Shown here piece by piece: positions 1-13,711 of a stretch of 13,711 nt of DNA (position 1 is the stretch's first letter; every line of letters begins with the position of its first letter). Where the stretch lies: the NCBI GenBank assembly GCA_945873875.1, contig CAMCER010000004.1, positions 1-13,711 of the forward strand, in the 5' to 3' direction. Both the position numbers and the translations under genes were made by a program. Source of the DNA: an uncultured Clostridia bacterium (GTDB lineage: Bacteria > Bacillota_A > Clostridia > Peptostreptococcales > Anaerovoracaceae). Below the pieces are notes generated by a model. It ran no database searches. It was not told where the DNA came from and saw nothing but the letters and a program-made list of their open reading frames with translations.

Positions 1-170
1 TAGTTTCTTCCATCGAAAGAACAGAAAGCGATAAGATTCTTTTCCACAGGAACATCTTTTCCCGTTTTCATATACCTGGACCTCTGTGATGAGTAAACTG
101 CCTTTCTGGCGATCTTCCTCAGCAGCGCATTGTTCAGTATGAAGTTTTTCAGGCTTTTCTTAAGACTCAA
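1..170 (-). CDS. CDP-glycerol glycerophosphotransferase-like protein, N-terminal part (runs off the window)
   Basis: Only the first 56 codons lie in the window; the gene continues beyond position 1. The reading begins MSLKKSLKNF and passes through VEKNLIAFCSFDGRNY. That stretch matches the 'NLIvFeSf.Gr.Y' segment seen early in TagB/TagF-type (CDP-glycerol or CDP-ribitol) polymer transferases, which add polyol-phosphate units to wall polymers at the inner membrane face. The start is a TTG at 168-170, chosen because an AGGGG ribosome site (178-182) lies 7 bases upstream and no better start is seen. It lies 21 bases after the end of the acidic-tail frame and is probably the next gene of the same operon. 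It may be the polymerase that partners the transferase at 7604-8725. The identification rests on about 20 informative residues, so family assignment is likely but donor and acceptor are unknown. Confidence 0.65.
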   Translation of the reverse strand, partial: MSLKKSLKNFILNNALLRKIARKAVYSSQRSRYMKTGKDVPVEKNLIAFCSFDGRN

Positions 171-177
171 TCCTGCA

Positions 178-182
178 CCCCT
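178..182 (-). promoter_or_regulatory. Ribosome binding site for the TTG start at 170
   Basis: On the minus strand, AGGGG sits 7 bases before the TTG. It decides the start of the partial transferase gene, which has no in-frame ATG or GTG close by. Confidence 0.5.
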
Positions 183-191
183 TTCAGATCT

Positions 192-542
192 CTATACATC
201 CTCGTCCACATCATCATCGTCGTCCAGATCATCCTTTATATCCTCTTTCAGATCATCAGGATCATCTTTATCGATATCTTTATCCAGATCATCATCTACA
301 TCAGAGATATCGACAGTATCTGTATCATCATCAAGATCAGCCTCATCATCTGCATAAGATGCATCTGGCGCAATGCTTTCCTCAGCCGCAGTTTCTGCAG
401 CATCGTCCGCTGTCTCTTCTGCCGCTGCGCTCTTCTGCGCTTCCGTTTCTCCTGTCACAGCTTTCTCTGCCGGCTCTTCAGATACGCCTGCTGCAGCCAT
501 GGCAGCGGCTTCAGCAGCAAGAGCTTCCTCTTCCGCCTTCAT
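192..542 (-). CDS. Acidic Ala/Asp-rich tail: frameshifted C-terminus of the upstream ATP-grasp protein, or a small coupled gene
   Basis: This frame encodes 116 residues from an ATG at 540-542 that overlaps the stop of the 868-residue ATP-grasp gene as ATGA. The first half is Ala/Glu-rich and looks helical (ALAAEAAAMAAAG). The second half is almost entirely Asp/Glu with a few Lys (DDLKEDIKDDLDDDDDVDED). No enzymatic domain is visible. The frame is open further upstream to about 656 and already looks coding before the ATG: residues RDRLRELRRLEE follow directly from the AG-rich tract at 574-586. A -1 shift there would join it to the ATP-grasp protein as a tail of about 128 residues. The only SD-like sequence before the ATG is a poorly spaced GGAAG, which favours the fused reading. 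If this frame were not translated, a 368-base hole would remain in an otherwise tightly packed operon. Function unknown; a disordered anionic tail is the simplest description. Confidence 0.6.
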   Translation of the reverse strand: MKAEEEALAAEAAAMAAAGVSEEPAEKAVTGETEAQKSAAAEETADDAAETAAEESIAPDASYADDEADLDDDTDTVDISDVDDDLDKDIDKDDPDDLKEDIKDDLDDDDDVDEDV

Positions 543-3145
543 TTCTTCCAGACGCCTGAGCTCGCGGAGCCGGTCTCTCTCTTCTTGTCCCAGTAGCGCT
601 GAGCTATCCTCATGACCGGAGAGATGAACGTGTAGAACTTGCTGAAGTGCCTCCATCCCTTAGGATCGTCCACGTCTTTGACGAAATGGACATCCACTTC
701 ATTCATCATACGCTTCATGTCAGCTCTGGTGATACGGCTCTTGACGTACTCTTCTATCATGACCTTCTCACTGATGAAGGTGCAGCATTTGTCGTCTATA
801 CTGCAGTTAAGATCAATAGGCTTTCCGTGGAGCACGTAATCTGCGTACATTGCAGGCAGATTGACACCGCACTTAGTCACGGCATATCCGGAAGCACCGA
901 ATCTCATGTTGATCTCGATGAAGTACATCTTTCCGTCTTTAGTCTCTATAAGGTCGATGTCGAAGAGCCCTTCGAAATTCAGGCTTTCAACGAATTTTAT
1001 AAGGTTGGACACAAGAGGCTGCCAGTCTCTGCACGGAAGCAGCTGTCCTGTAATGGCCACGCCTCTGTGCTCCTGCTGACCTCCGTGAGTCGCCACGAAG
1101 AATCCCGGCGCCACGACTCCCTCCCGGGTACTGAGACCTAACAGCGAGTATTCCTTATCGATCTCCACGAAGTCCTCTACCAGCATCTCCACGCCTTTTT
1201 TACGTGAATAATCTGTAAGAGTCTCTCTCAGTTCCTCCTCGGATTCACACTTTTTCATCCTGCTCTTGGAACTGAATCTGCTTATGTTCGGCTTTATAAA
1301 GCAGGGATAGCTGATGGTGGAAGGTATCTCCGGCTCTTCTTTTCTTCTGGTCTTTATGAGACAGCTGTTCACTACAGGAAGACCTGCCTGTCTTGCCAGT
1401 TCTTTCTGCACTTCCTTGCTCATGATCCTGTTTATCTCTCTCGGCGTATCGTTGATATTCGGGAGATAATAGTAATCGCGGAGCTCATCCATATAGTCAT
1501 CTGCGATATTTGCGATAAGGTCATCTGCCGGTATCAGCAGCATCTTCCTGTCAGGATCAGCCAGTCTTATCAGTCTCTTCACGATCCTCCTGGTCCTTCT
1601 CTTTGATACGCAGACATAGTATGCCTTGATGTATTTGCTGTATGCGTCAGGCTTCAGCCTCTTCATGATATTCTTTTTCTTGGGCCTTACCTGGAATATC
1701 CTAAGCACTTCCACTTCATAACCGGCCTCGCCAAGGGATTTGGCGATGGTAAGGTTGGTGGAATAGTTCCTTCCGGATACCAGTATCCTGGGGTCTTTCG
1801 ACTCGGGATCTCTGGCATTCTTCTTGAAGGCCTGCGGATACCCGGCCAGAACATGCTTTATCTTTCTCAGCGGCGGGAACAAAGTCCTCTTTATGAGCTT
1901 CTTTACCTTCTTCTTCTTCCTGCTCAGCTTTCTTCTTCTGGTCTTGGCCTTGAAGTACTCGCCCGGAGCAGGGTCATCATCATCGAAAAGGAGATGAATA
2001 TCTGCTTTGTCGATGAGGTCGTTAAGTTCCTTCTTAGTTATCATCTCATGGAGATAGTCATCCCATGCCACTTTCTCGTATATGAAGTGCTTGTTCAGCT
2101 CCTTCACCTGACCGTCTTCAGGGCTGTGGCCCTGTCCCTTGGCTTCCTTGACAAAGAGAGCCGGCAGGTTCACTCCGCTCTTGAAGTACGAATAGTTGGG
2201 GCCGCCGCTTCTCAGGTTCACTTCGTTGAAATAGAGTTTATCCCCCACTACGTTGAATTCCATATCGAACATACCGAAGTAGTGGAAGCTCTTCATCATC
2301 TTTACGACAGCGTCCCATATATCAGATATATAGCTGTTGTCTACTACCTGCCCTGCCAGGGTGACGCCTTTTTCATACTGGGCCACCTGGGTCTTTCTGA
2401 TGACAGCAGGTATTATGACCTCCTGATCAAAGCAGACTCCGGAAAGGTCTATCTCATTATCTATCTCAAGGAACTCCTGCACCAGGATGGATCTCTTGTC
2501 GAATATCCTCCTGAGTCTGTGCAGATGGCTCAGAAGGTCATCTTTATCCTCACACACCTTCATCTCGTGCTTGTATCCGGTGATGCTTTCTATAGGCTTG
2601 CAGAAACAGGGATATACCATGTCGTCAGGGATGACGATCTCCTCTTCAAGTGAGAATACCCATTCCTTCGGGATAAGGAGCCCCGCCTTTTTCGCCAGAT
2701 CGCTCTGCACGCGTTTGTCCATGCTGCGGGTCATGGATCCGTCTCCGCCGCCTATTATCTCAGGCATTATGAATATATCCTCAAGGAGACTCTTGTTCAG
2801 GTCCATGATGGAAGTGGTGTAGTCGTCTGTAGGAAAAAGCACCGGCTTGTGGTCGTACCTTCCGGCATAAGCCAAAAGAGCGTCCAGCAGTTTCAGGTCG
2901 TCTCCGTCTTTTACCTTCTTAGATACGACTTCAACTGAATCACGTACGTATTTACTGCATGCCACCAGTTCCGACCGGTCCCGCCTGAAGGCACTTGCAA
3001 CCAGGTCCACTGTATATCCTGCCGAGCCTAAAGATCTTACTACACTGAGTCCTGTGGAATAGTTCCTGGATAAAACCACTACCAGATTATCCAGATCCCT
3101 GTCGTTTCTTTCTGCTATGATCTGATCGATGTTGTTGTTTTCCAT
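539..3145 (-). CDS. Tandem (two-domain) ATP-grasp protein, paralogue C
   Basis: This is an 868-residue protein with two ATP-grasp units. Unit 1 begins with a pre-ATP-grasp segment (LVVVLSRNYSTGLS, 21-34). It carries the nucleotide-contacting lysine (CKP, K183), the acidic strand VQEFLEIDNEID (222-233), and the metal/ATP site FNEVNLRSGG (E308, N310, R312). Unit 2 restarts at about 453 with ILVSGRNYST and has IKP (K618), VEDFVEIDKEY and FIEINMRFGA (E744, N746, R748). Both units therefore look catalytically intact. A very basic linker (about 401-442) joins them. ATP-grasp enzymes couple ATP to carboxylate-amine or related bond formation through an acyl-phosphate; the substrate is not predictable here, but context points to surface-polymer modification in the cytoplasm. 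The start is ATG with GGAGAG (3149-3154) ahead, 11 bases after the previous stop. The last 13 residues (from about 856) lack homology-like character, and the -1 frame continues as an acidic tail, so the true C-terminus is uncertain. Confidence 0.85.
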   Translation of the reverse strand: MENNNIDQIIAERNDRDLDNLVVVLSRNYSTGLSVVRSLGSAGYTVDLVASAFRRDRSELVACSKYVRDSVEVVSKKVKDGDDLKLLDALLAYAGRYDHKPVLFPTDDYTTSIMDLNKSLLEDIFIMPEIIGGGDGSMTRSMDKRVQSDLAKKAGLLIPKEWVFSLEEEIVIPDDMVYPCFCKPIESITGYKHEMKVCEDKDDLLSHLHRLRRIFDKRSILVQEFLEIDNEIDLSGVCFDQEVIIPAVIRKTQVAQYEKGVTLAGQVVDNSYISDIWDAVVKMMKSFHYFGMFDMEFNVVGDKLYFNEVNLRSGGPNYSYFKSGVNLPALFVKEAKGQGHSPEDGQVKELNKHFIYEKVAWDDYLHEMITKKELNDLIDKADIHLLFDDDDPAPGEYFKAKTRRRKLSRKKKKVKKLIKRTLFPPLRKIKHVLAGYPQAFKKNARDPESKDPRILVSGRNYSTNLTIAKSLGEAGYEVEVLRIFQVRPKKKNIMKRLKPDAYSKYIKAYYVCVSKRRTRRIVKRLIRLADPDRKMLLIPADDLIANIADDYMDELRDYYYLPNINDTPREINRIMSKEVQKELARQAGLPVVNSCLIKTRRKEEPEIPSTISYPCFIKPNISRFSSKSRMKKCESEEELRETLTDYSRKKGVEMLVEDFVEIDKEYSLLGLSTREGVVAPGFFVATHGGQQEHRGVAITGQLLPCRDWQPLVSNLIKFVESLNFEGLFDIDLIETKDGKMYFIEINMRFGASGYAVTKCGVNLPAMYADYVLHGKPIDLNCSIDDKCCTFISEKVMIEEYVKSRITRADMKRMMNEVDVHFVKDVDDPKGWRHFSKFYTFISPVMRIAQRYWDKKRETGSASSGVWKK
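574..586 (-). repeat. Short AG-repeat tract at the suspected frame switch
   Basis: The minus strand reads AAGAAGAGAGAGA in codons 854-858 of the ATP-grasp gene. Losing one AG unit, or gaining one base, would change the reading from RETGSASSGVWKK-stop to RDRLRELRRLEE and onward into the acidic frame. The tract is short for phase variation, so its role is inferred. Confidence 0.4.
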
Positions 3146-3156
3146 GTTCTCTCCAA

Positions 3157-5130
3157 TTACTTTTTCTTACTGAGTATCTTGTCGTAATACAGTTTCTGCT
3201 TTTCGTCTGACATCCTACAGAAATGATGTTTCCTGTAATCGTTATATGATATGCCCAGTCTCTTTCTGGCGTCTTTTATCTTTTCTTCTGCCTCCTGCCT
3301 GCTCCAGCCCATCTCATTCATGGCTTCAGCTATGCATTCTTCTTTTCTCAGTCTCTGCCGCTCTTTCTTCTCCTGTATGTTCTGATATTCTTTTACCTGC
3401 TGTTCTTCAGACAGTTTCCAGAACGCGTGCTTAGCATAGTCTTTAAAACTGATATCGAGTCTGCTTCTGGCATCAGCGAGTTTTTCCTCTGCTTCCTGCC
3501 TGCTCCAGCCCATGTCCTCCATGGATGAGGTGATGCATTCTTCCCTCTGCTGGCGCCGCTTTTCTCTGCGTTCCTTTATTTTATCATACTGGGCCTGCTG
3601 ATCATCAGGGCTTATCTCCCAGAATGAGAACTTTTCATAGTCTCTAAAGGAAATGCCGATGCGGCTGCGGGCATCTCTTATCATCTCAAGGGCCTCTTCA
3701 CGCTGGATGCCCTTTGCTTCTGACACCGCGTTTATACAGGATTCTCTCTGCTCAAGGCGTCTCTGTCTGCGTTCAACGCGTTTCTTGTATTCTTCTTCCA
3801 GATCTTCCGGCGCAACTTCCCAGAGCCTGTATCTCACATAGTCTCTCAGTCCCGCTCCGATCTTCTCTTTCGTCTGAGCCACAGCGCCTTCCGCATCTTC
3901 TCTGCTCATGCCGGTCTCCTCCATGACCCTGGCATACAGCTCTTCACGGCGTGCTTTACGCTTTATCCTCTTTTCCTGCTCCTCAGTGAATATCTCACCC
4001 GGTTCAGGGTCTTCTTCATTTACGAAGAATTTTATGTCTGCCTTCTGATCCCATTCGTCGAAGGTCTTTTTCGGAAGGATCTCATGGAGAAGATCCTCGT
4101 ATCCCATCTTCTCGTAAAAGTATGTCTTTCCGAATTCAGGGGTCAGTTCATCTTCCCCGTACGGTATGCCTTTCATATGTTTTACGAAAAGATCCGGCAG
4201 ATTGACTCCGCTTTTGAAATATACGAAATTAGTGCCGCCGCTTCTCAGGTTCATCTCGTTGAAATAGTATTTTTCACCTACAAGATTTATCCCCAGGTCG
4301 AACATGCCTGTGTAATGATACTCCCTGATGAGCTCCTCCACCTGTTCCTTCAGTCCCGGGAACCTGTCAAAGGGCATGAATTCGCCGGCCAGAGGCACGC
4401 CTCGGTCGTATCCTGCGACGATGGATTTCCATACCACGCCAGGAAGTATCACTTCCTGATCCATGGCAACTCCTTCTATATCTATCTCATTATCGATGTC
4501 TATGTATTCCTGAATCAGAAAATCTCTTTCGCTGAAACTTTCTGAAAGCTTATCAAGATGCTCCTGCAGCTGCTCTTTATCTTCGCACTTTGCCATCTCC
4601 TGCTTATATCCTGTAAAGCTCTCAAGTGGCTTTATGAAGCATGGATAAGTCACTTCATCGGGTATCTTCACAGGTCTTTCCCTCAGAGACACCACCCAGC
4701 ACGCTGGCGCAGGCATTCCCATATCCTCAGCTATCCTGCACTGGATGCTTTTATCCATGTATTTAGTCAGTCGTTCTCCCTCTCCGGCAATTCCCGGCAT
4801 GAGGAATATCTCTTCCAGAGCCTGTCTGTTCTCATCCATGACAGATGCAGTGTAATCATCAGTCGGTATAAGGACAGGCTTCTCGCTGTATTTATCCTTA
4901 TATTCCAGCAGTCTTGCTAACAGTTCTTCATCCTTTCCACTGTCGACTTTCTGAGATACTACCTCCGCAGTATTTCTCAGATACCTGCTTTTTGATATGG
5001 CAAGAGATCTGCCCTCACGCAGAGCGCTGGCTATCAGGTCCACTGTGTATCCTGCCTCGCCAAGCGATCTTATGACAGAAAGCCCTGTGGAATAATTTCT
5101 CGACAAAACAACTACCAGATTATCTGACAT
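3157..5130 (-). CDS. Single-domain ATP-grasp protein with four C-terminal 67-residue repeats, paralogue B
   Basis: This 657-residue protein matches unit 1 of its two neighbours from its first residues (NLVVVLSRNYSTGLSVIRSL). ATP-grasp residues are in place: IKP (K167), IQEYIDIDNEID (206-217), GMFD (D278), and FNEMNLRSGG (E292, N294, R296). A shared post-domain element follows, with LLHEILPKK and then NEEDPEPG at about 371-378. The second ATP-grasp unit found in the siblings is absent. From residue 398 to the end there are four units, three of exactly 67 residues and a last one of 59, rich in Arg, Lys, Glu and Gln and probably helical. Start ATG is well supported by AAGGAGG (5139-5145) eight bases upstream; the preceding gene ends 24 bases away. 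The enzyme core probably ligates or activates a carboxylate, as in its family. The repeats may bind a partner or polymer, but this is inference and I do not recognise them as a named domain. Confidence 0.88.
   Translation of the reverse strand: MSDNLVVVLSRNYSTGLSVIRSLGEAGYTVDLIASALREGRSLAISKSRYLRNTAEVVSQKVDSGKDEELLARLLEYKDKYSEKPVLIPTDDYTASVMDENRQALEEIFLMPGIAGEGERLTKYMDKSIQCRIAEDMGMPAPACWVVSLRERPVKIPDEVTYPCFIKPLESFTGYKQEMAKCEDKEQLQEHLDKLSESFSERDFLIQEYIDIDNEIDIEGVAMDQEVILPGVVWKSIVAGYDRGVPLAGEFMPFDRFPGLKEQVEELIREYHYTGMFDLGINLVGEKYYFNEMNLRSGGTNFVYFKSGVNLPDLFVKHMKGIPYGEDELTPEFGKTYFYEKMGYEDLLHEILPKKTFDEWDQKADIKFFVNEEDPEPGEIFTEEQEKRIKRKARREELYARVMEETGMSREDAEGAVAQTKEKIGAGLRDYVRYRLWEVAPEDLEEEYKKRVERRQRRLEQRESCINAVSEAKGIQREEALEMIRDARSRIGISFRDYEKFSFWEISPDDQQAQYDKIKERREKRRQQREECITSSMEDMGWSRQEAEEKLADARSRLDISFKDYAKHAFWKLSEEQQVKEYQNIQEKKERQRLRKEECIAEAMNEMGWSRQEAEEKIKDARKRLGISYNDYRKHHFCRMSDEKQKLYYDKILSKKK
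3160..3939 (-). repeat. Four in-frame 67-codon repeats
   Basis: Units run 3739-3939, 3538-3738, 3337-3537 and 3160-3336 (the last shortened to 59 codons). Shared positions include MGWSRQEAEEK in units 3 and 4, DAR.R..IS..DY..., FW..S...Q...Y..I, and a basic Arg/Gln/Glu stretch ending REECI or KEECI. Units 3 and 4 are the most alike and share a 17-base identical run (around 3296-3312 and 3497-3513, 201 bases apart), which suggests recent expansion at the C-terminal end. Unit 1 is the most diverged. Confidence 0.9.
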
Positions 5131-5154
5131 TTACTGATCCTCCTTCCGCATCTT

Positions 5155-7557
5155 TCAGCCGCCCCTTTTGAATCTCCTTATTTTTTCAGCCAGTTTCAGT
5201 GTCTTCATATAGTGTCGATATGGCATGATATCACATTTATCGTATATAAACAGCACATCTGCTGCATTTATTTCCCTGTCAAGCTGGCTTCTGCTCATGT
5301 CGCCTGCCGCAAACTCCTCAAGAAGCACTTTTTCACTTGCAAAGACCGTCTCGCCGATCTCTTCAAAGTCTTCAGGAGGCTCGATTCCTTTCAGAAGGAA
5401 GTCAGCCATCATACCCGCAAGGTTTATCCCTCTTTCCGTGAAAACATGGATTGATGCTCCTGCCCTGAAGTTGACTTCAAGGAAGAACACATTGCCGTCT
5501 TTGTCTTTTATATAATCGACGTCGAAGAGCCCTTCATAGCCCATGGAGCTTATGAGCTGCATGCTTTTTTCCGGCAGATCGCCGAGCGTATCCAGCGGCA
5601 CAGTCACGCCTGTGGCTGCAACGCCTTTCCTTGCCTTTGTCCCGCCTCTGAGAGTCCTGAAAAGGCACGGCGCGGTCACTTTCCCGCCTGCAGCAAATCC
5701 CAGGAGCGCATATTCCTCTTTTATGTCTGCCCACTCTTCTGCGATGAGGCCTCCTTCAGGGACGTTTCCTTCAATGTCTCCTGCATCTTCACATCTTCTC
5801 ATGACAGACTTTACAGATTTCATGCTGACAGCCGGCTTTACGAAGCACGGATAAGGAACATCAGAAGGTATATGCTCCCCGTCCGGTATGAATACACTTC
5901 GGAGCACCGGAAGGCCTGCTTTTTCTGCAAGCTCCTTCTGGAGCCTCTTATCCATCATCTTTATCTCTTCGCCCTGGCGGTCTCTGACGCCGGGCAGTAA
6001 AAATGCGTTTTTCAGAAGATCCCTGTGTTCATCAACGGCATATGCAGCATAATCATCCACAGGTACAAGCAGCTTTCTGCCGCCTGCCATAGAAAGAAGC
6101 TTTGATGCCACCTTTTCTGTATCGTTATCTGCGATGCACTCTCTGTAGTCAGTCACGTATCTGCTGAAAGCCTCAGGTTTCATCTTCCTTATGATCTGCG
6201 TGATCTTTGGCTTTGATTTATATATCCTCAGCACGCCGACTCTGTATCCTGCTTTTCCCAGGTCTCTTGCCATCACCAGCAGATTGCCTGAGTTTCTGCC
6301 GGTGATGATCACATCACTTTCAGGAGCTTCTGCGTGAGCTCTCTTTTCACGGCCTGCCATCTGAAGCACCCTGTGCTTCAGCGCGCTCAACCGGATCCTT
6401 CTTCTGAAATGTTTTCCCGGAGCGGGATCATCATCGTTTTCAAGGAGCCTGAAGTCGCTGTTTTCAATACAGTCATGAAATTCCTGATCCGAAAGATATC
6501 CGCGCATGTGATCTTCCCAGGCCACTTTCTCGTAAACGAAGGACCTGCCGTACTGGTCTACTGTCTCCATTTCCTTATCGTGTCTTCCTTCAGTCAGTTC
6601 ATCCACAATGATGGCCGGAAGGTTGGCACCGTTTAAGAAATATGAGATATTAGGACCGCCGCTTCTGAAATTGATCTCATTGAAATACATGCGCCCCTTG
6701 CTCTTTATGAATTCCATATCGAACATGCCTGTGTAATGATATCTTCTCAGCATGTCCGTGATCTTTTCTTTAGTATCGCCTGCTTCTTCCAGGGGGATCA
6801 GCTTTCCGGACATGGTGACGCCCTTCTCATATCCTGCGATCCTGGTCTTTTCAATGAGCGCAGGTATGATTATCTCCTGATCCAGGCTCACTCCGCACAG
6901 GTCGTATTCCTTTTCTATCTCAAGATAATCCTGAAGCAGCACTTTTCGCCTGCTGTAAAACTTCTGCATCTTTTCAAGATGCGGCAAAAGTTCTTCTTCA
7001 GAGCCGAATACTCCCATCTCCATCTTCTGCCCCGATATGCTCTCTAACGGCTTGAGAAAGCATGGGAAAACCAGATCCCCGGGAAGAGTTATCTCCCCGT
7101 CAAGTTCAACAGTCCAGCTTTGGGGCACGTCAAAACCGCTGGCAGAAGCAAGTTCTGCCTGCAGGCTTTTATCCATGCAGTCTGTTATGGTCTTTCCGCT
7201 GTCATCCCTGATGTCGGGAAAGAGAAAATGCTTCTTCAGAAGGTCGCGGTTGTCCGCTACCACAGAAGCAGTAAAATCATCCACAGGGAAAAGGACTTTT
7301 ACAGTATCCCTGTCAGATATATAATCGATAAGTGCGTCGATAAGGCCGCTGCCGTCATCTCCCTGGATCTTCTCCGAGAGGACCTCGCGTGACTGTCTGA
7401 CGTATTTGCTGGAAGATGCTATTATTGCACTTCCCTTTTTCTTGACACTGGCGATCAGATCAACTGTATATCCTGCTGAGCCCAGTGACCTTATGACACC
7501 AAGTCCTGTTGAATAATTCCTCGAGAGGACTATCACAAGCGGTTTCTTCTCACTCAA
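5155..7557 (-). CDS. Tandem (two-domain) ATP-grasp protein, paralogue A
   Basis: This is an 800-residue protein with two ATP-grasp units. Unit 1 opens with VIVLSRNYSTGLGVIRSLG (8-26) and has LKP (K169), LLQDYLEIEKEYD (207-219), GMFD (D280) and FNEINFRSGG (E294, N296, R298). Unit 2 starts near 415 with DVIITGRNSGN and carries VKP (K574), FDVDYIKDKDGN, and FLEVNFRAGAS (E694, N696, R698). Each unit ends in a shared EDxL/EEF...D-x-x-F subdomain. Both active sites look complete. Unit 2 resembles unit 2 of the 539-3145 protein more than its own unit 1, so the tandem form existed before the gene duplicated. The start is a TTG at 7555-7557, supported by GGGAGTAGGA (7561-7570) and by alignment with the siblings' N-termini. 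It lies 46 bases after the transferase gene and 24 before paralogue B. Role: ATP-dependent ligation or activation, probably in polymer decoration (inferred from neighbours). Confidence 0.87.
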   Translation of the reverse strand: MSEKKPLVIVLSRNYSTGLGVIRSLGSAGYTVDLIASVKKKGSAIIASSSKYVRQSREVLSEKIQGDDGSGLIDALIDYISDRDTVKVLFPVDDFTASVVADNRDLLKKHFLFPDIRDDSGKTITDCMDKSLQAELASASGFDVPQSWTVELDGEITLPGDLVFPCFLKPLESISGQKMEMGVFGSEEELLPHLEKMQKFYSRRKVLLQDYLEIEKEYDLCGVSLDQEIIIPALIEKTRIAGYEKGVTMSGKLIPLEEAGDTKEKITDMLRRYHYTGMFDMEFIKSKGRMYFNEINFRSGGPNISYFLNGANLPAIIVDELTEGRHDKEMETVDQYGRSFVYEKVAWEDHMRGYLSDQEFHDCIENSDFRLLENDDDPAPGKHFRRRIRLSALKHRVLQMAGREKRAHAEAPESDVIITGRNSGNLLVMARDLGKAGYRVGVLRIYKSKPKITQIIRKMKPEAFSRYVTDYRECIADNDTEKVASKLLSMAGGRKLLVPVDDYAAYAVDEHRDLLKNAFLLPGVRDRQGEEIKMMDKRLQKELAEKAGLPVLRSVFIPDGEHIPSDVPYPCFVKPAVSMKSVKSVMRRCEDAGDIEGNVPEGGLIAEEWADIKEEYALLGFAAGGKVTAPCLFRTLRGGTKARKGVAATGVTVPLDTLGDLPEKSMQLISSMGYEGLFDVDYIKDKDGNVFFLEVNFRAGASIHVFTERGINLAGMMADFLLKGIEPPEDFEEIGETVFASEKVLLEEFAAGDMSRSQLDREINAADVLFIYDKCDIMPYRHYMKTLKLAEKIRRFKRGG

Positions 7558-7603
7558 AATTCCTACTCCCTGATCATGACCTTCAGATGAAACTAGCGAT
7601 TTT

Positions 7604-8725
7604 TCATATCCCGGCTTTCAGCCTTCTTCCCTTTATCATCTCACATACTGCATCAGCCATTTTCTCTGTGCAGCATCCCGGCTCTACTTCTATGAATCTT
7701 TCCATGAACGCTGCCAGAGCATCTGAGTCATATTCTTCTTCAAGACATGCGGCAAGCTCTTCTGCGTCTGTGAACTGGTATTTTCCGATACTTTCTTCGC
7801 TGAACCGGACATTGAGCCCGTTGTCTGCCTCATACTGCTCAAGATCATATGTGTATAAATAAAGGGGTTTTCCCGTTATGGACGCCTCAACGACAAAGGA
7901 CGAATAATCGCTTATCACTATGTCACATGCCTTCAGAAGATCATAGGATCCGTATTCATCTGCGAAAATGACTCCTTCCGCCGGCTCCTTCGGCGTATCA
8001 TCCAGAGGATGGAGCCTTACCAGAAGATCGTACTTTTCCTTGTCGATGTGCCTCGCAAGGGACATGTAGTCCGTCCTGCTGATCCTTCTGAAAGTAGGCA
8101 CGTACAGGATGACCTTCTTTCCGTCCCTGCCTGCGCCGTAATGCTTTCTTATCTCATCGGACATTTCCGGATCTTCTGATGCTATGAAGTCGATCCTGGG
8201 AAGTCCTAAAAGCACTGCGTTGCTCCCGTCATATCCGAAGCCTTCACTGAAATGCCTTCCGGTGATGCGGCTGGGACAGGCTATATAGTCATAGTTCTCA
8301 TGCATATGCATCCCGGAAGAAACGGCCTCTGAAGAACCTTCCTTCTTTCCCACAGTCTGTCTGCCAAACTGCTTGACAGCGCTGACAGCATGCCATATCT
8401 GCATTATCTGAAGGTTTTTTTTATGTCTCAGAATGCTGACAGGTATGCTGTAGGAATCTGTGATCACAGCTTTTGACGCAGCGATCTGCTTCATCTGGGC
8501 CAGCATATGAAAAAAGTATCCCGGGCTCATGGAAAGTTTCCTGCACATGAGGCGTGTCTCAACTCCCCGCCGGGCAAGTTCTTCTCTCAGCATCTGATAG
8601 TCAAGAGATTCCTCATCACTCTGGCGGCTGACCATAGTCACCTGTTCTTTTTCCGGTGTGAGCCTGATGAACATATAAATGAATCTCATCAGGCCTGTGA
8701 ATAAAGCCATAAGGACCTTTTTCAA
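7604..8725 (-). CDS. CDP-glycerol glycerophosphotransferase family protein (TagB/TagF-like)
   Basis: This 373-residue protein is close in length to single-domain TagB-type enzymes. It has a short hydrophobic/amphipathic N-terminus (ALFTGLMRFIYMFIRL, about 7-22) that may help membrane attachment. Family landmarks follow in order: ITDSYSIP (88-95), QIWHAVSAVKQFG with the key histidine H112, GLPRIDFI (174-181), ILYVPTFR (206-213), RLHPLDD with H239, and the nucleotide-binding block DIVISDYSSFVVEASITGKP (268-287). In this family these histidines and the SDYSS block act in transfer of glycerol- or ribitol-phosphate from a CDP donor to a lipid-linked acceptor at the cytoplasmic membrane. The start is TTG, with a perfect AGGAGG five bases upstream overlapping the stop of the ABC ATPase gene. 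It sits between the exporter genes and the ATP-grasp genes in one operon. Donor sugar or polyol is not determined. Confidence 0.9.
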   Translation of the reverse strand: MKKVLMALFTGLMRFIYMFIRLTPEKEQVTMVSRQSDEESLDYQMLREELARRGVETRLMCRKLSMSPGYFFHMLAQMKQIAASKAVITDSYSIPVSILRHKKNLQIMQIWHAVSAVKQFGRQTVGKKEGSSEAVSSGMHMHENYDYIACPSRITGRHFSEGFGYDGSNAVLLGLPRIDFIASEDPEMSDEIRKHYGAGRDGKKVILYVPTFRRISRTDYMSLARHIDKEKYDLLVRLHPLDDTPKEPAEGVIFADEYGSYDLLKACDIVISDYSSFVVEASITGKPLYLYTYDLEQYEADNGLNVRFSEESIGKYQFTDAEELAACLEEEYDSDALAAFMERFIEVEPGCCTEKMADAVCEMIKGRRLKAGI

Positions 8726-8730
8726 ATCAG

Positions 8731-8736
8731 CCTCCT
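8731..8736 (-). promoter_or_regulatory. AGGAGG ribosome site overlapping the ABC ATPase stop codon
   Basis: The minus strand reads TAGGAGG, so the stop TAG (8735-8737) of the ATPase shares bases with a consensus ribosome site five bases before the TTG at 8723-8725. This fixes the TTG start and implies tight translational linkage between the two genes. Confidence 0.8.
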
Positions 8737-9562
8737 AAAAATCTTGGATCTCGTGTTCTTTATCATCGTCAGACTGGTCATCCTTGTGATCGTCCTTGTG
8801 CTCCTCATCTTCACCTGCAGTGAGCACCTTGGTCTTATACTTAGTACGGAACTCCTTTATGGCCTCATCCAGAGGTCCGTCATACATGACCATGCCCTCG
8901 TGAAGCACGATGCCTCTGGTGCAGAGCTCCACAGTGATGGGCCAGATATTGTTTACCATAACAAGCGTTCTGTTCTCGTCGCTGGTTATCTCCTTCAGTT
9001 TCGCCACGCATCTTGCTCTCTGGTCCAGATTGCCTACCGCAAGGAAGCAGTCAAAGACCATGATGTCATTGTCATCCACAGCCATCATGGAAAATCCCAG
9101 ACGTGATATATCCACCGGTTTGAAAGCCTTCATCTTCATGTCTATGAGCCTGTCAAGCTCTGCGAACCGGATGATCTCCTCTTCTCTTTCTGCCACCTGC
9201 TCCTTTGTCCAGCCAAGCATCCTGCCCTTCATGTATATGTTATCGCGGCCGGTGAAGTTCATGTCAAAGCCCGACCTCATATCAAAGATAGGCAGGATCT
9301 TTCCTTCGACTTCGGCTGTACCTTCAGTAGGGAAAGTAACTCCTGAGATTATCTTGGCAAGTGTACTCCTGCCGGAGCCGATATTGCCTATTATGGCGAC
9401 ATTCTCGCCTTTTTTTATCTCTATGTTCACGTCCTTCAGCGCATGGAAAGGAATGCCCTTGTTGAATCCGAAAAGCTCATGGGCCACCTTCTGCCTGTTG
9501 GACTTGTATATCCTGTATTCTTTAGAAATGTTTTCAAGTTTTATTATAGTCCTGTCTTCCAT
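8735..9562 (-). CDS. TagH-like polymer-export ABC ATPase with degenerate catalytic motifs
   Basis: This 275-residue protein has the layout of the ATPase of TagGH/Wzt-type polymer exporters (IKLENISKEYRIYKSN near the start, SGFDMNFTGRDNIYMKGRMLG at 97-117 in place of the family's 'GAGF.pelTGreNIyl.g..lG'). The catalytic positions are altered. Walker A reads GNIGSGRST (59-67) with Arg65 for the essential Lys. The signature region, usually YSSGMRxRLgFS, reads FKPVDISRLGFS (147-158) without the SGM/SGG core. Walker B reads IMVFDCFLAVGN with Asp171 kept but Cys172 for the catalytic Glu. The switch region, usually VSHD, reads VNNI with Asn205 for His. The protein ends in a charged tail (about 250-275) rich in Asp, Glu, His and Lys. 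The frame is uninterrupted and start ATG has AGAGGTG upstream. It may be an inactive half that pairs with another ATPase, a regulator, or a decaying exporter subunit. Confidence 0.88.
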   Translation of the reverse strand: MEDRTIIKLENISKEYRIYKSNRQKVAHELFGFNKGIPFHALKDVNIEIKKGENVAIIGNIGSGRSTLAKIISGVTFPTEGTAEVEGKILPIFDMRSGFDMNFTGRDNIYMKGRMLGWTKEQVAEREEEIIRFAELDRLIDMKMKAFKPVDISRLGFSMMAVDDNDIMVFDCFLAVGNLDQRARCVAKLKEITSDENRTLVMVNNIWPITVELCTRGIVLHEGMVMYDGPLDEAIKEFRTKYKTKVLTAGEDEEHKDDHKDDQSDDDKEHEIQDF

Positions 9563-9572
9563 CGATGCACCT

Positions 9573-10391
9573 CTATATGATATCCGGCAGTACTCTTCTC
9601 AGTTTCTTGTACAGCCATACTGCCACTATTGCCATCACTGCCAGCACAAGGATAAAGTATCCGAAGGACTCCATATCCTCCCAGAACCATATGTGATAAC
9701 ACATGGCGTTCCTGTAGCCCTCAACGATATATGTTATGGGGTTGAGCTTGAAGAATATCTGGGCGTGTTCCAGCGGCCTGGAGTTGAACAGTATTCCAGA
9801 AAGCCAGAAAAACGCCGGGTTCACCGCTTTTAAAAGATCCATGAAATCGCCGGAGATCACCGCAAGAAGGCCCGATGCCATGTTCCATATCACCGTCAGA
9901 AGCACCATAAAAAGCGCATATATCGGTATCTGCAGCCAGTATATGCTGGGATATGTCTTGAAACATATGCAGATCACGAACCCTATCCCTATCATTATCA
10001 CGTGTATGTACAGAAATGATACGGCTATCACCGAAGGTATCGTCGATACAGGGAAAGTGCTTCTGGTGACCAGATACTTGTACTTCCTGAAGCATCCGGC
10101 TCCCCCCAGTATCATGTCCCTCATGTAAAACCAGGGGATCATCCCGGCCATGAGCCAGACAAAGTAAGGACAGATTATCCCGTCTATATCTTTTGCGTGT
10201 CTGAATCCTATGGAAATAGCAAAATAAAAAATGCACAGATAAAACAGCGGCTTGACCAGTGCCCAGAACCACCCCAGGTCCGATGACCTGTACATGCGTC
10301 TCTGGTTCACAGTAGCCAGTGCTACAGTGCCTGAAAAGTTATGTATATTCTCCCTGATTATCTCTTTGAATGCCTTTATCAACTCAATCAC
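9573..10391 (-). CDS. ABC-2 type polymer-export permease (TagG-like)
   Basis: This 272-residue integral membrane protein has about six hydrophobic segments. It begins with a cytoplasmic amphipathic stretch and then the family-typical SSDLGWFWALVKPLFYLCIF (36-55). WLMAGMIPWFYMRDMI follows, then two long segments (VSFLYIHVIMIGIGFVICIC; IYALFMVLLTVIWNMA). The conserved loop NPITYIVEGYRNAM precedes the last transmembrane helix (FILVLAVMAIVAVWLY). The family moves undecaprenyl-linked wall polymers across the membrane with a TagH/Wzt-type ATPase. Its partner is the gene 10 bases downstream, whose catalytic motifs are lost. It is the first gene of the operon. The start is uncertain: GTG at 10389-10391 has AGGA four bases upstream, while an in-frame TTG at 10380-10382 has AGGTGA five bases upstream. 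Confidence 0.92.
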   Translation of the reverse strand: MIELIKAFKEIIRENIHNFSGTVALATVNQRRMYRSSDLGWFWALVKPLFYLCIFYFAISIGFRHAKDIDGIICPYFVWLMAGMIPWFYMRDMILGGAGCFRKYKYLVTRSTFPVSTIPSVIAVSFLYIHVIMIGIGFVICICFKTYPSIYWLQIPIYALFMVLLTVIWNMASGLLAVISGDFMDLLKAVNPAFFWLSGILFNSRPLEHAQIFFKLNPITYIVEGYRNAMCYHIWFWEDMESFGYFILVLAVMAIVAVWLYKKLRRVLPDII

Positions 10392-10422
10392 CTAATCCTG
10401 TAAAAAATAATCCCTTGTTGAG

Positions 10423-10451
10423 ATTTTAACATTATTTCAGCCATATCGCAA
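10423..10451 (-). promoter_or_regulatory. Sigma-A-like promoter for the minus-strand polymer operon
   Basis: On the minus strand, TTGCGA (10446-10451, four of six to TTGACA) is followed by exactly 17 bases and then TAAAAT (10423-10428, five of six to TATAAT). Predicted transcription would start near 10416, about 25 bases before the GTG of the permease gene. It is the only good match in this intergenic stretch and lies before the first gene of the run. Confidence 0.55.
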
Positions 10452-10452
10452 C

Positions 10453-10481
10453 GAAGAGCAGAAAATGTGTTCCTGCTCTTC
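10453..10481. repeat. Perfect 9-bp inverted repeat beside the operon promoter
   Basis: GAAGAGCAG (10453-10461) and CTGCTCTTC (10473-10481) are exact reverse complements separated by 11 bases. The left arm begins two bases from the -35 hexamer of the minus-strand promoter. On the plus strand it is followed by a moderately T-rich run (TTTGATTTTATTTA, 10487-10500), so it could be an operator or a weak terminator. No plus-strand gene ends just before it. Confidence 0.5.
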
Positions 10482-10530
10482 TCCGCTTTGATTTTATTTA
10501 CCGTTCATTCTCAGACAGTAAGACTCAGAT

Positions 10531-11004
10531 ATGAAAGCGAAACATAAAAAACTGGCCAAGGGCCAGATCCAGACAGTATCAGGATCAAAATACAGGATCA
10601 CGAAAGTCGCTTCCGCATCTGCTCAGGGCACAGTCACTCTGACCAGAGCAAAGAATGTAAAAAGTTTCGCTGTTCCCAAAACAGTAAGACTCAGCGATAA
10701 GAAGCTCTATAAAGTCACTGTCACTGCAGCAGGCGCTTTCAAAGCTGCAAAGCTCCGCACTGTGACTGTTGGCGCTAACGTGAATAAACTGGCTAAGAAC
10801 TCTTTTGCGAAAAGCAAAGCAGTGAAAGTCATTCTCAAAACGAAAAAGCTCACCGCGAAAAACATAAAGGGATGCTTCAGATCATCGAAGGTGAAAACAG
10901 TCAAAGTCAGCGTAGGAACCAAAAAGATGAACAGGACCTACGTGAAAAAATACAGAAAAATAATCACAAAGAAAAACACCGGGCGTTCAGTCACCGTCAA
11001 GTGA
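10531..11004 (+). CDS. Lysine-rich BspA/LRR-like C-terminal domain without signal peptide (probable remnant)
   Basis: This 157-residue, very basic ORF has almost no acidic residues. It resembles the C-terminal module of BspA-like leucine-rich-repeat surface proteins of Clostridia: GQIQTVSGSKYRITKVASA (11-29) and KKLYKVTVTAAGAFKAAKLR (57-76) followed by TVTVGANVNKLAKNSF, KAVKVILKTKKLTAKNIKG and a Lys/Tyr-rich end. Such modules normally sit at the end of long secreted proteins. Here there is no signal peptide, no anchor, no clear ribosome site before the ATG, and an in-frame stop only 12 bases upstream (10519-10521). None of the upstream frames supplies a secretion signal. It is most simply a 5'-truncated remnant, but the frame is intact and a short expressed protein cannot be excluded. 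It lies divergent from the polymer operon and convergent with the protease gene. Confidence 0.55.
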   Translation: MKAKHKKLAKGQIQTVSGSKYRITKVASASAQGTVTLTRAKNVKSFAVPKTVRLSDKKLYKVTVTAAGAFKAAKLRTVTVGANVNKLAKNSFAKSKAVKVILKTKKLTAKNIKGCFRSSKVKTVKVSVGTKKMNRTYVKKYRKIITKKNTGRSVTVK

Positions 11005-11013
11005 TCTTCCTGC

Positions 11014-11038
11014 CCGGTGATGATCACACCGGTGGTCT
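11014..11038 (+). terminator. Weak hairpin between convergent genes
   Basis: CCGGTG (11014-11019) and CACCGG (11027-11032) form a 6-bp GC-rich stem with a 7-base loop, 10 bases after the stop of the plus-strand ORF. The following TGGTCTTT is only mildly T-rich. It could serve either convergent gene but is not a strong intrinsic terminator. Confidence 0.3.
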
Positions 11039-11071
11039 TTATCCCGCAAGTCTGCCGGACTCTGCGGCTTA

Positions 11072-13606
11072 TCAGATAACTCTCACGCTGACCGTCACTA
11101 TGTCGGTCAGCTTTTTATAATTGCTGTTACCTGCCGCAGTCACTTTTATCTTCACCCTGTAAAGGCCTTTCCTCACGCCTTTCTTCACAGTCAGTTTGCC
11201 TGTGCTTTTATTTACGACGAATTTCTTGGAGTACCTTGTCTTGCTGACGCTGGCTTTGACGTATGTCAGAGTCCCTCTGGCGCCGCTGACGCTCATGATC
11301 TTTCTGCGTAATCTAACGAGGCTCTTTTTCTTAAGTATGCTGGCTTTCAGCTTTATGGTCTTTCCTTTCGCTGCAAGAGTGTTCCTCGCCTTATTGATCC
11401 TGTATGAGGCTTTGGCGGTCCCTGTATATGCGCCTGTTCCCTTTATGGTCACAGTGTAAGTTCCAGCGTTTTTCGGCGTTGCAGCAGACCATACTGTCGT
11501 GTAGTCAGTACCCTTCAGCAGAGCCATCCCGCCGATGGATACTATAGCAGGCCTGTGAACGTATCCGTTGTATGTATACGCAGTCTTCGACAAAACCACT
11601 TTCATACCTGATATATATGTGAGTTTCGGGATCGCTGCGGTCTTCGTCCGGGTCTGGAAAGTCGGATCCCGGAATTCTGCTGTATAAGTGATCTGCCCCT
11701 CTTCATCCGCAGTCGGCTCCTTTGTCACCTCTTCAGTCACAGCTGCCGTCTCCTTCAGAGTCTTTCCGCAGCCTTCTCTTTCGCACGTGGCTGATGCTGT
11801 CACGCTGCTGTTATCATCAGACCATGTGTACTGCGGCTCTCCCCAATCATGGCCAAGAGCCTGCTCTGTCTCACGGACAGTCCTGCTGAGTTCAACCCCG
11901 CAGCCGCTGCAGTAAACGACTTCTTCGCAGGATCCTGCATGTTCGCAATCCGCTGCCTTTTCATTTTCTTTAACTGAGTCTCTGGGAGTGTGTCTGCCGA
12001 TGCTGACCGTCATCTGACTTCCTGAGTCTGAAGTAAATATTACACCTATGCTGGACAGGCTTCTGCTGTTTGTAGACGAATCTGCATCCTCGCTGTATAC
12101 AGGAAGGTGCAGGATATCTCCCTCACCTGATGGGAAATATGTCTCCCATGCCGTAAGATCAAAGAACGGCCTTGTTTTGAACGGAGTGAGTCCTATAAAG
12201 GTGTAGCCTCCGCTGCTGGTCTTCTTTTCCGGATAAAGAGGCATCACTGCCGGCCGGTGCGATCCTGTATTATTGACTTCGTTTTCATCATTGTACTTTT
12301 CATACACCTGCTCATCTATATGCCACAGCACTATGCCTCCTCTGTTGGAGGGTTCCGCCATTGAAGATATCAGCTTCGGGTCCCATTTGCCTGCCTGCCG
12401 GTTCTCAAGAAGATAATACTCAGCGCCTGAATCATCTACTTCGATCTTCAGCGCTGAAACTGCTTCACTGATGTCGCTTTCACCGGAAGCGCTGTCACTG
12501 CTGTTATTATCGCCTTCGCCGGCATCCATGCTCTCGATTCTGTATTCTCCATGTTCTGATGCTGTCACAGGTTCTGTCCATCCAAGAATCGACCTGCACC
12601 AGATATCCATGGAATATGGAGAGTACTCACCCGCTGCATCGCGGCCCCAGATACCGTTGGCCATGACGCTCATTTTATCGACTTCATATGCGTGCCATAC
12701 ACCGCTGGAACTGTATTCAGTGTCGTAAAGATCCGGCAGTCCCAGATAATGACCCAGTTCGTGAGCCATGAGGCTTATGGGAGCCTGCTTTATACTGCCG
12801 TCTTCAACTTTTTCGCTGATGGCGATGTAGTCTATGACCTGTTTGCCGTCGTGCTCCAGTCCCGAGCTGCTGTATGCATCCAGTGACCATGCGTGAGACC
12901 ACAGGTACTGATCATATGGGTTAGTGCCGTCCGATGTAGCTCCTTCATATCCTGCAACGACAAAGCCCAGAGCCATCTCGTTGTTTTCGATAGTGCCGTC
13001 TGCGTCCGTATCGTACTGACTGAAGTCCACATACGCATCTGCCTTATCCACTGCTTTTCTGAGCATCCTGATCACGCTCAGGTTCTCTTCATCACTATCC
13101 AGATTCCATCTTTCATGCTCTGCATCAAGACTGATATGCACGATGCCGTCATTAAGACCGTCTGCCGCATTTGTATTTTTATCTGTGCCGTACTGACTGG
13201 ATTCTGCGGCCGGCGTGAATGTAAACCTGTCGCAGGACATGTCTTTATAGTACGCGCACAGTGAGTCATCCTCTGTGAATAATGTATTATGCCAGTCATA
13301 GCCATCATCATATCCGATATCTGTGAATCCGACTACCACCACCAGGAGCGGAAGGCTCTTCATCTGTCCTTCCTGAGGCGCTTTAGCGCTTTTGATGCTT
13401 TTCTTTCTGATATCTGCCGCAACATCATCTAAAGTGACCATTTCGCCCACGTGTGATCTGCAGCCTTTTTCCGTTCCGTCATATTCGCTTCCCGGTGCTG
13501 CAGGTACGGCAAATGCATCTGCCGCAGAAAGCGCAAACAAAGCTATCACTGCCAGCGCAGATGTTATGATGATCTTTCTTATCTTTTTCAGACTGGTGGT
13601 TTCCAT
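11072..13606 (-). CDS. Secreted M6-family zinc metalloprotease with C-terminal cell-surface beta domains
   Basis: This 844-residue protein has a Sec signal peptide: basic KKIRK, hydrophobic core at 11-28, probable cleavage after ADAFA (about residue 33). The mature part begins with an M6-type domain (LPLLVVVVGFTDI at 85-97). An EF-hand-like calcium loop follows (DTDADGTIENNE, 199-210). The zinc site HELGHYLGLPD has H282, E283, H286 and D292. A Met-turn region follows (DKMSVMANGIWG), then LGW and a C-terminal part of the catalytic domain. Next come a Cys-rich GHDWG-type module with CxxCG motifs, an MBG/Ig-like repeat (about 665-740), and a Lys-rich Ig-like end. All catalytic residues are present, so it should be an active extracellular protease. 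No LPxTG motif or C-terminal membrane helix is seen; retention on the wall may rely on the basic domain. Start ATG has AAGGG ten bases upstream. The gene follows another surface gene by 36 bases and is convergent to the LRR remnant. Confidence 0.92.
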   Translation of the reverse strand: METTSLKKIRKIIITSALAVIALFALSAADAFAVPAAPGSEYDGTEKGCRSHVGEMVTLDDVAADIRKKSIKSAKAPQEGQMKSLPLLVVVVGFTDIGYDDGYDWHNTLFTEDDSLCAYYKDMSCDRFTFTPAAESSQYGTDKNTNAADGLNDGIVHISLDAEHERWNLDSDEENLSVIRMLRKAVDKADAYVDFSQYDTDADGTIENNEMALGFVVAGYEGATSDGTNPYDQYLWSHAWSLDAYSSSGLEHDGKQVIDYIAISEKVEDGSIKQAPISLMAHELGHYLGLPDLYDTEYSSSGVWHAYEVDKMSVMANGIWGRDAAGEYSPYSMDIWCRSILGWTEPVTASEHGEYRIESMDAGEGDNNSSDSASGESDISEAVSALKIEVDDSGAEYYLLENRQAGKWDPKLISSMAEPSNRGGIVLWHIDEQVYEKYNDENEVNNTGSHRPAVMPLYPEKKTSSGGYTFIGLTPFKTRPFFDLTAWETYFPSGEGDILHLPVYSEDADSSTNSRSLSSIGVIFTSDSGSQMTVSIGRHTPRDSVKENEKAADCEHAGSCEEVVYCSGCGVELSRTVRETEQALGHDWGEPQYTWSDDNSSVTASATCEREGCGKTLKETAAVTEEVTKEPTADEEGQITYTAEFRDPTFQTRTKTAAIPKLTYISGMKVVLSKTAYTYNGYVHRPAIVSIGGMALLKGTDYTTVWSAATPKNAGTYTVTIKGTGAYTGTAKASYRINKARNTLAAKGKTIKLKASILKKKSLVRLRRKIMSVSGARGTLTYVKASVSKTRYSKKFVVNKSTGKLTVKKGVRKGLYRVKIKVTAAGNSNYKKLTDIVTVSVRVI

Positions 13607-13642
13607 AGGGCATTTTCCCTTGCAGCGGATCCATTCTTCACT

Positions 13643-13711
13643 TTATTTCACTGTCACGCTGACAGTTTTCCACAGACCGTTTATAGCCTGCACATATATG
13701 GTGCAGGTCCC
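13643..13711 (-). CDS. C-terminal end of a surface-type (Ig-like) protein, partial
   Basis: The last 22 codons of a gene entering from the right edge read GTCTIYVQAINGLWKTVSVTVK and then TAA (13643-13645). This resembles the end of bacterial Ig-like (Big_2-type) domains of clostridial surface proteins, where a 'G...IYV.A.nG..k.v.VtVk' strand is the final one. The frame is open to the window edge. With 36 bases to the protease start and no terminator between them, the two genes are probably co-transcribed. The main body is outside the window, so its function cannot be stated. Confidence 0.6.
   Translation of the reverse strand, partial: GTCTIYVQAINGLWKTVSVTVK

Follow-up and report, generated by a model that had tools for sequence, protein, structure and literature searches.

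Transport driven by ATP is the defining feature of ATP-binding cassette (ABC) exporters, and the ATPases of WzmWzt and KpsMT are catalytic. TarGH/TagGH, a type V ABC system represented by TarH of Staphylococcus aureus (9cfl) and TagH of Bacillus subtilis (7dd0), is the known system closest to the locus described here. In PMC11971408 the TarH motifs are given as YSSGM, Glu169, Asp175 and His201, and S. aureus TarGH is reported to be active as an ATPase. The present analysis concerns a window of 13,711 nucleotides from an uncultured Clostridia bacterium of the Anaerovoracaceae (contig CAMCER010000004.1, positions 1 to 13,711, forward strand), which encodes a TagH-like ATPase beside a TagG-like permease. 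In this ATPase each of the TarH motifs just listed, together with the Walker A Lys, is replaced, and no ATPase activity would be expected of it.

SUR1 and CFTR, eukaryotic single-chain proteins that retain ATP binding or hydrolysis, represent a type that provides a precedent for an ABC architecture acting as a gate, not a pump. Where WzmWzt and KpsMT would have a C-terminal domain, the window ATPase has an acidic tail. The degenerate-site ABC exporters treated in PMC7756269 resemble it in that motifs are eroded while the nucleotide-binding domain (NBD) fold and selection are retained; they differ in that one composite site is catalytic, whereas the window ATPase lacks both halves and its kind is the sole TagH found in 20 of 22 genomes. 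RbsA and NupO of B. subtilis (PMC11466899) likewise are degenerate-site ABC ATPases from a bacterium; they differ in being fused double NBDs of importers, with one site of the two described as degenerate. A full-text literature search, judged from titles and abstract openings, recognised no catalytically dead TagGH lineage.

A TagH-like ATPase with altered catalytic motifs

The gene and its motifs are as follows, motif and tail coordinates being derived from residue numbers.

8735-9562, minus strand: degenerate TagH-like ABC ATPase, open reading frame (ORF) of 275 residues
9362-9388, minus strand: Walker A region GNIGSGRST (residues 59-67), Arg65 for Lys and Ile61 for Asn
9104-9124, minus strand: signature region FKPVDIS (residues 147-153), replacing YSSGM of canonical TagH
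9029-9067, minus strand: Walker B and D-loop DIMVFDCFLAVGN (residues 166-178), Cys172 for Glu and Asn178 for Asp, Asp171 kept
8942-8962, minus strand: switch-His region VMVNNIW (residues 201-207), Asn205 for His
8738-8827, minus strand: acidic C-terminal tail (residues 246-275, net charge -11), low predicted local distance difference test score (pLDDT)

A first-pass annotation, made from the letters of the window, had described an intact frame with four altered motifs (Arg65, the signature core, Cys172 and Asn205), and was right on both counts: the ORF runs through without stop or frameshift. The signature region reads AFKPVDISRLG where canonical relatives have xYSSGMxxRLG, and Walker B reads DIMVFDC. 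Losses beyond those first described affect the D-loop Asp (N178), the Walker A Asn (I61) and a Glu that follows Walker A (D94). The Walker A Lys, YSSGM signature, Walker B Glu, D-loop Asp and switch His are thus all missing from a protein that has a TarH-like NBD fold and lies next to a TagG-type permease. Curated models, against which the window protein alone was scored, recognise it in part: PF00005, the ABC transporter ATPase family, scores 42 bits (cut-off 25) with only residues 42-90 aligned, while NCBIfam PRK13545 (145.6 bits, cut-off 538) and PRK13546 (128.3 bits, cut-off 320) fall below their cut-offs.

The observation is confirmed as real, and the locus as an unusual, conserved form of TagGH exporter; it looks like an exporter lineage without ordinary ATP hydrolysis. 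The best explanation, and probably the correct one, is a single TagGH-derived clade in which a hydrolysis-dead NBD under purifying selection stands beside a TagG-like permease.

Related modules in other genomes

In all eight proteins nearest to the window ATPase in a protein search (P0001 at 95% identity, P0002 to P0008 at 53-59%), Arg takes the place of the Walker A Lys, PVD stands where the SSG core would be, and both Glu and His are lost. Close orthologues with normal motifs, which would have marked the window copy as a recent pseudogene of an active TagH, were looked for and none was seen among these eight; that explanation is rejected, the losses being common to all. Sequencing error is likewise rejected because independent assemblies carry related changes. 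The ATPases of genomes G892 and G893 agree with P0002 and P0004 in their motifs and in the C-terminal 30 residues. On the contigs of these two genomes (4,021 and 3,871 bases) the order permease, ATPase, PF04464 enzyme, ATP-grasp protein is kept, with 56-57% identity to the window for the ATPases and 68-79% for the permease, PF04464 and ATP-grasp parts. A scan of genome contigs returned, over long stretches, relatives of up to 37% identity only.

The search was then set out by taxon. Of 398 genomes drawn from the G007 family, 85 matched the ATPase at 1e-45, and all 33 ATPase loci read from this and one other search were canonical; a further search of 398 genomes matched 15, with a canonical ATPase at 13 of the 15 loci and no ATPase within the stretch at two. 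A permease match was found in 70 of 393 genomes of the G002 order, and the 30 loci read there (L129-L158) comprised ten degenerate ATPases and 20 canonical ones, one of the latter having TNG in place of SSG. The G636 family (349 genomes, 167 with a profile match at 1e-45) yielded 17 degenerate modules, nine of them already known from earlier loci, and 12 canonical ones among 29 loci read. Of another 92 matches in this family, taken unsorted, 87 carried the full motif set; four copies were degenerate, and one was a variant with SAG. The total is at least 23 degenerate modules in at least 22 genomes among the 349, a lower bound since partial Wzt-like matches were mostly left out of the reading.

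Motif states were counted over 24 ATPases, those of the window and of 23 modules. None has the SSG signature or the switch His, and the D-loop Asp occurs once. The Walker A Lys position holds Lys in 7, Arg in 14, Cys in two and Val in one; the Glu after Walker B is kept in 10, the Walker B Asp in all 24, and the Walker A Gly64 in 27 of 27. The 65 canonical ATPases used for comparison have Lys, Glu, D-loop Asp, His and VGD in all 65 and SSG in 64, counts that describe the class since these proteins were chosen from loci already seen to be canonical by motif. Set beside them and the unsorted 92, the altered motifs of the window protein exceed what chance would give. The loss common to the clade is therefore that of signature, His and D-loop, with Lys and Glu gone in part only. 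The SAG variant (L326, genome G739) is a TagH-like ATPase that keeps Lys, Glu, His and Asp; it is possibly an intermediate, or else an unrelated variant.

The particular replacements Arg, Cys and Asn, whose conservation the first-pass annotation had proposed to test, are conserved only in part, less than had been expected. Arg65 is shared by 14 of 24 and Asn205 by 10 of 24; Cys172 occurs in 1 of 24. Asn205 is the commonest replacement, yet the two nearest syntenic relatives have Ile and Ala. Replacements that vary in this way point less to new catalytic residues than to a release of constraint at the catalytic positions. They bear directly on the idea that these proteins form a slow but ordinary ABC pump, in which Arg65 or Lys and Asp171 would bind Mg-ATP and another group would activate water. 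The invariant Asp171 and Gly64, the Lys and Glu retained by some members, the near-canonical signature cores of two proteins of the branch (P0009 and P0010) and the retention of the polymer genes are in its favour. We nevertheless consider it unlikely, since none of the 24 members keeps the signature Ser or the switch His and only one keeps the D-loop Asp, residues that complete the composite site, and the varied replacements give no sign of a newly fixed catalytic residue.

A single branch under constraint

When the permeases are placed in a tree of 87, those of the 24 modules all fall on one branch (support 100/100), as do 20 of 20 in an 83-row tree. The degenerate ATPases form one branch of 22 in an 81-row tree and one branch of 27 with motif columns removed (91 rows, Shimodaira-Hasegawa-like approximate likelihood ratio test 100, quick method). 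ATPase rows were trimmed to the first 250-290 residues and identical rows dropped; near-duplicates were removed at 12 loci before the 81-row tree and at 12 before another, with L118 put back. The trees have midpoint roots and the tool gave a long-branch warning. Despite that warning, repeated independent decay is not favoured, given the single branch for both ATPase and permease.

Codon differences in ten pairs of degenerate ATPases amount to 0.12-0.29 at the second position and 0.48-0.65 at the third. A ratio of nonsynonymous to synonymous rates (dN/dS) below 1 had been proposed as a check, and it can be answered in part: the second position lies far below the third, while dS is saturated or undefined in many pairs. 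As judged from these codon positions, purifying selection acts on the degenerate ATPases. The original suggestion of a selected degenerate ATPase, not a recent pseudogene, is thereby upheld by the eight degenerate neighbours, the one permease clade and the codon constraint together.

The constraint is differently distributed from that in canonical modules. In 1897 of 1953 canonical pairs the ATPase is the better conserved of the two genes, vs 11 of 190 degenerate pairs, the pairs not being independent. Degenerate ATPases keep a mean of 54% of 72 conserved canonical sites and their permeases 78% of 34, where a control split inside the canonical sets keeps 95% (ATPase) and 91% (permease). Losses are more frequent at motif sites (12 of 24) than at the other sites conserved in canonical TagH (13 of 48), but the difference falls short of significance (Fisher p 0.07); the counts do not show that losses fall mainly on catalytic positions.

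Faster evolution of the ATPase would also fit decaying remnants of a dispensable TagGH, replaced for example by Wzx-type flippases. One degenerate ATPase is in fact shortened at its C terminus (L176, 9269-9964, in genome G597, which also has a canonical TagGH), with no evident continuation in other frames over the next 170 bases. The flippase family PF01943 matches in 17 of 18 degenerate-module genomes searched, but equally in 12 of 12 canonical comparison genomes; as a test of Wzx replacement it is uninformative, the family being present with and without degenerate modules. Set against decay are a frame that stays open at near-canonical length or longer in 23 of 24 modules across large divergence, the codon pattern and the better-kept permeases, and we regard decay as quite improbable.

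Other ATPases in the same genomes

The first-pass annotation had allowed that a catalytic TagH might be borrowed from elsewhere in the genome. A canonical TagH query against the 22 degenerate-module genomes found a canonical copy in G597 and G805 only. For the other 20 the best match was the degenerate copy (4e-57 to 1e-41), the next ABC proteins matching at 2.6e-21 or weaker; absence was judged by one canonical query (1e-20, 1e-18, 1e-15) and a profile at 1e-45. A borrowed TagH is accordingly unlikely in most relatives. Genome G700 (L181, L185) has two different degenerate TagGH modules and no canonical TagH was found there; the pair is possibly a natural hetero-assembly.

More broadly, a catalytic ABC ATPase of another transporter might drive the permease, either by itself or paired with the degenerate subunit in a heterodimer. 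The two genomes with a canonical TagGH and the pair in G700 agree with this, and degenerate-site heterodimers are a known kind (PMC7756269). The heterodimers described there, however, keep one catalytic site, and here neither would be complete: with Walker and His positions as well as the signature altered, a normal partner would leave both composite sites incomplete. Together with the 20 genomes lacking a canonical match and the distance of the next ABC proteins, this makes the explanation rather doubtful.

Gene neighbourhood and acidic tails

The remaining features assigned in the window are:

9573-10391, minus strand: TagG/KpsM-like permease of 272 residues, the ATPase's partner, 10 bp from the ATPase gene
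7604-8725, minus strand: CDP-glycerol glycerophosphotransferase-like enzyme (PF04464), next gene downstream of the ATPase
5155-7557, minus strand: tandem ATP-grasp protein, with a homologue after the PF04464 gene in G892 and G893
3157-5130, minus strand: ATP-grasp protein; Pfam ATPgrasp_Ter and NCBIfam ATP-grasp models match, all below cut-off
539-3145, minus strand: tandem ATP-grasp protein with an acidic C-terminal tail

The permease is weakly recognised by curated models (no Pfam match; NCBIfam KpsM 32 bits, cut-off 300). A PF04464 gene also adjoins the orthologous ATPase in G892 and G893, and the family is present in 17 of 18 degenerate-module genomes searched. Pfam matches among 28 chosen neighbour proteins from several loci comprise ATP-grasp types, PGA_cap, LicD, Mur ligase, D-Ala-D-Ala ligase, MBOAT, AMP-binding and PF04464 families; four of the 28 have no match. 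A tail with net charge of -6 or lower ends 16 of 20 degenerate ATPases vs 2 of 60 canonical ones, a count that leaves out five of the 65 canonical ORFs, those of 320 residues or more.

Three successive ATP-grasp genes (539-7557, minus strand) stand behind the PF04464 gene, two of them tandem double ATP-grasps. Acidic tails end both the window ATPase and the last ATP-grasp protein, and the middle one (3157-5130, minus strand) has, by eye, four imperfect repeats of about 67 residues in its C-terminal part. Upstream of the permease, and on its strand, lies an M6-family (immune inhibitor A-like) metalloprotease of 844 residues (11072-13606, minus strand); a 157-residue plus-strand ORF (10531-11004) separates the two. 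In G509, locus L177 (11875-14847) encodes a 991-residue protein in which the middle and C-terminal domains of Mur ligases are combined with BspA-type leucine-rich repeats and a weak PGA_cap match; it adjoins the degenerate module and a gene for a D-Ala-D-Ala ligase. L178 and L180 encode proteins with similar N termini. Positions 7400-10600 of the window gave no blastn match in PLSDB, and no close relatives of the window ATPase were found in viral contigs.

Proposed mechanism and significance

At the level of sequence, the case consists of degeneracy, a common branch, constraint, a search that found no other TagH in most of these genomes, and a phosphopolymer/ATP-grasp context. From these a mechanism can be sketched. 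Two ATPase copies would sit beneath a permease dimer as in TarGH and would no longer hydrolyse ATP; the pair would hold the channel together, possibly gating it via the gate-helix region, with nucleotide perhaps statically bound, as the kept Walker B Asp and Walker A Gly64 would allow. The acidic tail might dock cytosolic enzymes (ATP-grasp, PF04464), and the polymer might be pulled by synthesis or by ligation outside, with no ATP cycle. This fuller proposal, of monophyletic TagG-type exporters that have given up ATP hydrolysis entirely and in which the NBD dimer is gate and enzyme dock for an amino-acid-decorated phosphopolymer moved by synthesis or ligation, is tentative.

Several points weigh against a hydrolysis-free exporter with a docking tail. 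P0009 (TAGM, with Lys) and P0010 (TSGM, with Arg), known as proteins alone and not in genome context, belong to the branch with near-canonical signatures; G597 and the second module of G700 carry a His one residue past the aligned switch position; and the Lys and Glu that persist mean that some members may keep weak activity. Losses spread beyond the catalytic sites, fast ATPase evolution is also expected from relaxed selection, and the degenerate copy of G597 may be decaying. The 20 genomes in which no canonical TagH was found are assemblies of unstated completeness. The tails of P0003, P0005, P0008 and P0026 fall short of -6, and those of four later members have charges of -1, -3, -8 and -2, one reaching -6. 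The mechanism as a whole is a proposal from sequence.

The loci point to a surface polymer whose synthesis would involve many ATP-grasp ligases and which seems undescribed in the literature searched. The modules are natural test objects for how far TagG-type polymer export needs an ATP cycle, and the clade, if true, would split the structural role of the NBD from its role in ATP hydrolysis.
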